A stretch of 64,000 bases of DNA, taken from assembly GCF_004799665.1 (NCBI RefSeq), contig NZ_CP031310.1, positions 3,154,887 through 3,218,886 of the forward strand. Reading direction: 5' to 3'. The notes beneath the pieces are model-generated. The model was given only the letters and a program-made list of their open reading frames with translations, was not told where the DNA came from and searched no databases. The DNA comes from Halapricum salinum. Its GTDB lineage: Archaea > Halobacteriota > Halobacteria > Halobacteriales > Haloarculaceae. The position numbers were made by a program, and so were the translations under genes. Of the stretch, positions 40,218 through 41,253 are shown piece after piece. How positions within the stretch are numbered: the stretch's first letter is position 1; every line of letters begins with the position of its first letter.

Positions 40218-40862
40218 ATGGACCAACAGCTGCTCACCGTCACCGCCATCGAGTCGGTCGGCCCCGATTCGGTCGCCATCCACTTCGAGACGCCTGCCGA
40301 CTTCTCGGCCAGCCCCGGACAGTTCGTCAAGTTGACCCTCGACACTCCCGAAGGTGAGGAATCCCGGTTCTACACGATCTCCTCGCCCGACGTCGAGGAC
40401 ACCTTCGAGATCACCGTCGAGATCGACTCCGAGGGCGCGGTCGGCCCGCTGCTGGACGAACTGGAGGCCGGCGATTCGGTGCGCGTCGCTGGCCCGTTCG
40501 GCAGTTCCTACTACGAAGGCGAGCAGCGCGTCGTCGTCCTCGCTGGCGGCCCCGGCGTCGGCCCCGCGGTCGGGATCGGCGAACGCGCGATCGCGGACGG
40601 CAACGACGCCGCCATCGTCTATCGCGACAGCGACCCGATCCATCAGGACCGCCTGGAAGCACTGTCGGAGGCGGACGCGTTCGTCCGAATCGTCGCCGAC
40701 GGCCAGGACCTGACCGATCCCGTCGCCGACGCGCTCGAATCTGTGGGAGACGGCGCGCAGGTGTTCGTCTACGGGTTCGCCGACTTCCTGGACGCCGCGA
40801 CCTCCGCCATCGAGGCCGCGGGTGGGGAGCCTGACGAAGCCAAAGTAGAAAACTTCGGCTGA
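40218..40862 (+). CDS. FAD/NAD-binding oxidoreductase (ferredoxin reductase-like)
   Basis: Flavin reductase-type protein of 214 aa. An N-terminal FAD-binding beta barrel (1-95) has SPGQFVKLTLD and RFYTISSPD, the R-x-Y-S/T flavin motif. A nucleotide-binding domain follows with VVLAGGPGVGPAVGI and ends VYGFADFLDAATSAIEAAG. No iron-sulfur cluster motif is seen. Family members pass electrons between NAD(P)H and ferredoxin or other carriers. It starts 111 bases from the korA start in a divergent layout, and a link to ferredoxin reduced by KorAB is plausible but unproven. Confidence 0.84.
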   Translation: MDQQLLTVTAIESVGPDSVAIHFETPADFSASPGQFVKLTLDTPEGEESRFYTISSPDVEDTFEITVEIDSEGAVGPLLDELEAGDSVRVAGPFGSSYYEGEQRVVVLAGGPGVGPAVGIGERAIADGNDAAIVYRDSDPIHQDRLEALSEADAFVRIVADGQDLTDPVADALESVGDGAQVFVYGFADFLDAATSAIEAAGGEPDEAKVENFG

Positions 40863-41253
40863 AAGCCCTTGCGCGGCCCTGGCGGGCCGCGCTGCGCCCT
40901 TTTCATGTCCACCAGGCCCGCATGACCACCGTCGGCGATTGCCGACGGGGTCTGAAGGCAACGCCAGCGCTTTCTGGAGTCGCGGGCGAATTGCCCGCTC
41001 ACGGCTTCGCCGTTCGCGTGATACGAGGCGCGTCGCGCCTCGCTCCCGACGACTCCCCATTCCTCCCCGGCGGCCAGCATCAACGCTGGCCGCTGGCTTC
41101 CTGACCGCAGGCCGCTACGACCCACGGTCCGACCGTGGTCCGCCACAGCCACCTCCAGTGTGTCTCTGAGAGTTGCTACTCCAATCGCCACAACTGAACA
41201 TCGAATCGACAGGTGGCCGCGTGGTTTTTACTTTTCCACGGTGAGTGAGAACT
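40863..41253. other. Gene-free spacer of about 390 bases filled with hairpins
   Basis: No convincing protein frame: the short open frames here are on overlapping strands and lack family similarity. The stretch holds a run of perfect short inverted repeats (listed separately) up to about 41138, then about 85 bases without structure, then the promoter of the next gene: a tttttact box near 41226-41233, about 25 bases before ATG 41254. Confidence 0.6.
40871..41138. repeat. Array of seven perfect hairpins
   Basis: Seven inverted repeats in 268 bases, stems (left arm/right arm): 40871-40879/40884-40892 (9 bp, GCGCGGCCC); 40929-40936/40941-40948 (8 bp, CCGTCGGC); 40982-40987/40993-40998 (6 bp, GCGGGC); 41001-41005/41009-41013 (5 bp, ACGGC); 41024-41031/41035-41042 (8 bp, CGAGGCGC); 41070-41078/41085-41093 (9 bp, GCGGCCAGC); 41122-41128/41132-41138 (7 bp, CCACGGT). 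Loops are 3-6 bases. Stems differ in sequence and spacing, so this is not a CRISPR. The first could also act as a terminator for the flavin gene. It may be a structured RNA, a protein-binding region or a recombination scar. Confidence 0.7.

Follow-up and report, generated by a model that had tools for sequence, protein, structure and literature searches.

The first six of seven closely spaced hairpins in an intergenic spacer of the window (the whole 64-kb stretch of DNA analysed here) are one copy, at 40861-41108, of a dispersed hairpin-rich element. We propose that this modular element of Halobacteria sits at the 3' ends of genes and acts in cis as a terminator-like 3'-end element, a tentative reading to which we give a probability of about 0.48.

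An independent scan for perfect stems of at least 5 bp with loops of 3-6 nucleotides returned the same seven hairpins (stems of 5-9 bp) that an earlier note on this DNA had reported, at 40871-40892 (stem of 9 bp), 40929-40948 (8 bp), 40982-40998 (6 bp), 41001-41013 (5 bp), 41024-41042 (8 bp), 41070-41093 (9 bp), and, on the + strand, 41122-41138 (7 bp). The shuffled-sequence check of hairpin density that the note had proposed came out in its favor: 40871-41138 holds 52 stem bp, a value that none of 1000 dinucleotide shuffles reached (9.15 ± 6.12), and of 236 further tiles of 268 nt across the window none had more than 27 stem bp. Folding z-scores of the spacer were -5.1 for the + strand and -6.3 for the - strand, and in neither case did any of 100 shuffles fold as well. 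The reading frames of the spacer were short and overlapped the hairpins. No Rfam family reached its gathering score over the spacer (at E ≤ 10 there were four sub-threshold hits, all weak), which ruled out a known RNA family and agrees with the note's statement that no known RNA explains the region. The note had treated the seven hairpins as one group, and this holds for the first six; the seventh lies outside the skeleton common to other copies, and 41113-41244 taken alone is not hairpin-rich, having one hairpin (420 of 1000 shuffles equaled this count and 95 of 1000 equaled its stem bp). With no shuffle as hairpin-dense as the spacer and with a homologous family of copies in existence, it is extremely improbable that the hairpins arose by chance in a GC-rich spacer, a view for which nothing speaks apart from the earlier reader's own caution.

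The element has the skeleton GAAAGCCCTCG-hairpin-CTCGCCCTTTTCATGTCC-RCCAGG-hairpin-pyrimidine linker-hairpin, which was conserved across copies, and in the window all of its parts are on the + strand. Its left end lies within the TGA stop codon (40860-40862) of a gene for an FAD-binding oxidoreductase (PF00970; 40218-40862, + strand). Module M1 (40861-40910) was delimited by its match to R1, our covariance model of the element's first hairpin, by covariation, and by sequence. In its helix P1, GAAAG (40861-40865) pairs with TTTTC (40900-40904), and its variable stem P2 (40871-40879 / 40884-40892) has the loop TGGC; M1 also contains pyrimidine linkers and a T-run followed by C. The window M1 scored 73.2 bits with R1 (match G000:C1:3195746-3195804). 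The linker ACCAGGCCCGC (40911-40923), conserved among copies, leads to module M2 (40924-40952), a hairpin GACC-A-CCGTCGGC-GATT-GCCGACGG-GGTC that occupies the same slot in other copies and whose counterpart in the set of copies at fttA (below) is helix 3 of the covariation test. A further conserved linker, which includes GGCAACGCCAGCGCTTTC (40953-40975), is followed by module M3 (40976-41056), recognized from the scan and the sequence. M3 is expanded here, with an outer stem GGAGTCG/CGACTCC (40976-40982 / 41050-41056, read from the sequence) around hairpins 3-5 of the scan; the M3 slot in loci L002, L003, L005, and L013 holds one simple hairpin. The copy is completed by a pyrimidine linker with CCTCCCC (41057-41069), module M4 (41070-41093), a hairpin GCGGCCAGC-ATCAAC-GCTGGCCGC, and the right end TGGCTTCCTGACCGC (41094-41108). 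This linker and the right end are conserved among copies; M4 is in the same slot in other copies, and its counterpart (helix 4) covaries in the fttA set. Two side observations concern this copy. A segment inside M3, GCTCACGGCTTCGCCGTTCGCG (40996-41017), had two further exact (100%) occurrences in the same genome by BLAST, and TCAC-hairpin-GTTC loops resembling it were seen in several copies. The M1 loop TGGC could possibly kiss with CCAGG/GCCAG, both of which are near-invariant and beyond the reach of covariation.

BLAST searches with the spacer gave 11 matches in its own genome, where R1 had at least nine, and found matches in all six genomes of the genus. The earlier note had called the stems unrelated and the region no simple repeat; the stem sequences do differ, but the spacer belongs to a dispersed repeat family with a conserved skeleton, and the differing stems are therefore compensated forms of one set of hairpins. 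Among 293 genomes of the order, which represent 87 genera, an 18-base skeleton pattern searched with one mismatch allowed occurred in 54 (20 genera), some of these 54 being coding false positives; the reversed control gave few matches. When 84,980 species genomes were searched with an exact 21-base pattern, 12 stretches matched, all from Halobacteria by title. Of the 391 Halobacteria genomes sampled, R1 matched 113, in 45 of 86 genera, with a best score of 84 bits. In a phylum-wide sample it matched 27 of 294 genomes, of which the seven that share the phylum only scored no more than 27.5 bits, and we took these matches outside Halobacteria as chance. Genomes carried from about one to at least 14 R1 matches, these counts being lower bounds because no more than 14 to 50 candidates were scored in each genome. 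The exact skeleton pattern was absent from IMG/VR, a phage collection gave no match to the element, and plasmids gave a single partial match of 48 nt, across the inserted M3 hairpins; carriage as phage or plasmid cargo was rejected on these grounds. We found no description of the element in the open-licence literature, which does not imply its absence from print.

The retrieved loci contained 110 M1 copies; having been collected by pattern search, they do not sample the family at random, and relatives among them are not independent. Stretches reading GCCCCTTTCATGTCCGCC, which we read as lying inside a coding gene, were excluded from locus retrieval. Pairs were counted in the 64 copies of the commonest length, which together with the window make up a 65-row alignment. 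Both M1 helices covaried in this alignment and the stem sequences varied freely. Two-sided changes were present in 250 cells versus 84 in shuffled alignments, and the covariation score was 0.655 versus 0.170 ± 0.013 for shuffled alignments and 0.07-0.11 for slid controls; kinship of the copies inflates the shuffle control, and the slid control retains that kinship. P1 (GAAAG/TTTTC) had changed from G-C to A-T on both sides in six copies, and in the second copy of locus L007 it reads CTAAG/CTTAG. The covariance check with homologues that had been suggested in the note thus found stems covarying in copies elsewhere, and the idea of decayed sequence gives way to a conserved skeleton with covarying stems. 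We also saw a recurrent tandem T.C/C.T mismatch (often CTCG facing CTCG), at two different heights, in otherwise unrelated M1 stems; the rows concerned include L066, L095, L110, L115, L117, and L144, and they give the impression of a four-base inversion.

In 73 of the 110 copies a sense frame that was gene-like, as judged by length and acidic composition, ended within 300 nt upstream. The left end of the element was within 8 nt of a sense stop codon in 60 copies (the frame ending between 8 nt before the element and 1 nt into it). A sense gene lay within 60 nt upstream of 66 copies, in 25 gene clusters of which eight were common to at least two families; 44 copies had no sense gene within this distance. 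In 8 of the 110 copies a divergent frame begins 37-42 nt from the left end, which in that case would lie just behind that gene's promoter. Host genes found in at least two families (NCBIfam/Pfam) were fttA/aCPSF1 (three families), gyrB, PAN1, and genes for ErpA/IscA-like, GdhB, and PhoU-domain proteins. aEF-1beta was a host gene within one family and rpS19e in Halapricum, with a similar gene end in L068 that was read by eye. The gyrB-side copies are located between gyrB and the next gene, which we take to be gyrA. As to the host gene in the window (40218-40862), its orthologue has the element 0-9 nt past the stop codon in four of the six genomes of the genus; L162 has the gene end without the element, and L161 was unmatched by the tail pattern. 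In the four Halapricum carriers the element was kept with the upstream gene and the sequence beyond it differed, so that the comparison yielded no clean empty site. A homologue of this gene in family f14 (L110) also has the element.

The fttA gene was followed most fully in the Natrinema-containing family (Natrialbaceae), in 111 genomes of which R1 gave 48 matches at E ≤ 0.01. All 17 matches scoring 48 bits or more (17 genomes, 9 genera) lay 1-6 nt past a match to the FttA profile, on the same strand; three of the 31 weaker matches were also behind fttA (gaps of 3, 67, and 124 nt) and 28 were not. The class search added three more genomes with the element at fttA (G421, G363, and G349). At L228, which had no model match, the element at fttA is interrupted by an inserted double hairpin, and the fttA count is therefore a lower bound. 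A strong R1 match was missing in 94 of the 111 genomes, and fttA was without the element in all six Halapricum genomes. We aligned 16 fttA copies across M1, M2, and M4 (14 of the 17 strong matches plus L182 and L191), omitting G168, G403, G149, and L197, in which inserts or missing parts break the alignment. The four helices had 69 double-change cells versus 19.1 ± 3.3 in shuffled alignments, and the covariation score was 0.354 versus 0.108 (0.04-0.06 for slid versions). In pairwise comparisons the similarity of the element followed that of FttA (Spearman 0.715; 0 of 2000 permutations) and averaged 0.776, the same value as for third codon positions of fttA; the next 100 nt past the element were near random (0.547 versus 0.513 shuffled). 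These similarities speak for an element that was co-inherited with fttA and evolved in place there, as opposed to repeated insertion. The excerpts of the FttA/aCPSF1 literature that we consulted contain no mention of aCPSF1 self-regulation.

We favor a role in cis at the 3' end because M1, a GC hairpin plus TTTTC, is like mapped terminators. In the available portions of a study of Haloferax volcanii (H. volcanii below), intergenic terminators are described as T-runs with termination at a C and, in some, an upstream hairpin; an inserted T5C stopped 95% of transcripts and a hairpin 59% (PMC7237163). The TTTTC of the window (40900-40904), 38 nt past the stop codon, has the form of the H. volcanii T-run terminators, and among 64 M1 copies position four of the run was T in 52 and the following base was C in 56. 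According to excerpts of two other papers, FttA binds U-rich RNA (PMC11616081) and aCPSF1 works with terminator U-tracts (PMC8716108). We infer that the element is transcribed and contributes to termination as follows. A nascent transcript would leave the stop codon and enter the GC-rich hairpin and then the T-run ending in C (TTTTC), and the later hairpins with their C/T-rich linkers would halt the polymerase or else shield the new 3' end and set its position. FttA may act on the element, given that it is a termination factor that binds U-rich RNA and that one family's clear copies follow its gene; at fttA such action would give feedback, a bolder extension of the 3'-end reading. Bolder again, and in our view unlikely, is the idea that the element was ancestrally a feedback 3'-end switch by which FttA controls its own level, recognizing or cleaving the structured tail of the mRNA that encodes it, and that copies of this tail came to lie, in several haloarchaeal families, behind other housekeeping genes (gyrB, PAN1, aEF-1beta, rpS19e, and glutamate dehydrogenase), whose 3' ends would thereby be linked to FttA activity. 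Against a terminator-like role, a full stop between gyrB and the putative gyrA would be costly, the stems have no RNA-like wobble signature (below), the link to FttA is not general, the 44 copies with no sense gene within 60 nt and the eight near a divergent start do not fit, and several genomes have many copies, as if the element were spreading. If the role is real, haloarchaea own, beyond short T-run signals, a homologous 3'-end module that can be copied, and the gene of the general archaeal termination factor has one behind it in one family, which would make FttA self-regulation testable. Even if selfish, the element would be a haloarchaeal palindromic repeat whose stems change wholly while pairing and position persist, and a good case for comparing selection on RNA with DNA template switching as the keeper of perfect palindromes.

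The selfish alternative is a serious one, and we hold it to be plausible, if somewhat less likely than the role in cis: a non-autonomous palindromic repeat of the PATE/REP type, occupying harmless gaps behind genes, whose stems are kept perfect by hairpin-templated (template-switch) replication errors and not by selection on RNA. The gyrB-side location, the multi-copy spread, the stems common to copies of one genome (L014, L018, L026), and the missing wobble pairs keep it a close rival. Copies are dispersed, with tandem and convergent pairs (L003, L007) and a patchy distribution, and the small double-hairpin inserts within the element (as SMR-A in PATEs), the T.C/C.T tandem mismatches resembling local inversions, and the gene tails duplicated beside some copies point the same way. 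Such a repeat would not be expected to yield 17 strong copies at one gene in the Natrinema family with similarity that follows FttA, nor the recurrence of the same genes across families at offsets of 0-8 nt. A candidate mobilizer of PATEs also failed to track the copies: the IS200/IS605 Y1 transposase (PF01797) was absent from all four multi-copy genomes tested (G000, G034, G010, and G040) and present in all five low-copy genomes (G001, G005, G068, G261, and G215), which leaves dependence on IS200/IS605 unsupported.

The scarcity of wobble pairs bears on whether the stems are maintained as RNA or as DNA. G.T pairs made up 3 of 576 M1 stem cells and 3 of 515 cells in the fttA set, versus 24 of 642 in 30 tRNAs of the same genome as the window, a shortage of about sevenfold (Fisher p about 1e-4 and 3e-4). 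There were 13 A.C mismatches in M1 and seven in the fttA set; ARAGORN draws permitted pairs only, and its tRNA A.C count of zero carries no information. Scarce wobble fits upkeep of the palindromes at the DNA level and speaks against a plain RNA reading, but strong terminator stems too could avoid G.U, and the shortage is not decisive. One way for DNA to be the selected form is a boundary or protein-binding element, with structure-specific proteins on extruded hairpins between genes and a role in the chromosome or its supercoiling. Nearly wobble-free stems would suit it, as would the placing of the left end at a stop codon or, in eight copies, at 37-42 nt from a divergent start. We nevertheless consider it improbable, since no protein is known to bind it and such a role needs neither the T-run nor the orientation with the sense gene. 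If each copy gave rise to its own structured noncoding RNA acting in trans, the strong covariation would be explained, but this is very improbable: wobble pairs are nearly absent, and in 60 of the 110 copies the element starts no more than 8 nt past the stop codon, which leaves little space outside the gene for a promoter of its own.

Bacterial REP/BIME elements lie at gene 3' flanks, as does the element described here, and we know of no link between mitochondrial hairpin elements and the stop codons of given genes. As described in the accessible parts of two papers, REP/BIME elements with RAYT are likewise palindromes outside genes, arranged as mosaics, in tandem, or convergently, but they have more than 100 copies, conserved stems, and RAYT, whereas our element has about one to at least 14 matches per genome, free stems, and no Y1 transposase in four of four multi-copy genomes (PMC2817692, PMC3116915); the combination of a conserved palindrome and a RAYT Y1 transposase was thus not found. 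Mitochondrial repetitive hairpin elements, e.g., those of sponges, are also dispersed intergenic hairpins, in quite different genomes (PMC2800124, consulted in part). According to the parts of the PATE study that we consulted, PATE of Haloquadratum walsbyi is likewise haloarchaeal, non-coding, palindromic, and dispersed, has no internal transposase gene, and hosts SMR-A inserts comparable to the small nested inserts here (PMC3119063). Our element resembles it in having hairpins near both ends of 40861-41108, which is too short for a transposase. Unlike PATE, as compared by its description, the element is tied to stop codons and specific genes across families, in one family has few copies beyond the one inherited together with fttA, being nearly single-copy there, and occurs in multi-copy genomes that were without Y1 when tested. 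The H. volcanii terminators, in the portions available, also have a T-run and then C behind genes, some with an upstream hairpin, but they share a short motif only, whereas the copies of the element are homologous along a long skeleton with several hairpins (PMC7237163).

Several copies contain a second, smaller double-hairpin unit with short repeated ends, often between RCC and AGG and in the same slot in two families (L184, L194, L197; L061, L121, L123, L125, L126; L018, L026). This insert behaves like the SMR-A elements of Haloquadratum. At L050, L051, L056, L059, L060, and L077, M1-only copies lie antisense behind genes that are presumably acyl-CoA dehydrogenase-like, with a direct repeat of the gene tail (27-56 nt) on their flanks; flanking direct repeats were clear only at these loci and were rejected as a general target duplication. 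At L212 (about 1440-1535) the tail of the host gene is apparently duplicated directly before the element, and the first tail copy is then followed by its own fold-back (TTCTGATTGC GTAG GCAATCAGAA), as if by template switching. Tandem M1 pairs, at a spacing of about 51-52 nt, were seen at L003 (1323-1431), L014, L108, and L109, and L007 (1384-1834) has two tail-to-tail copies within one intergenic region.
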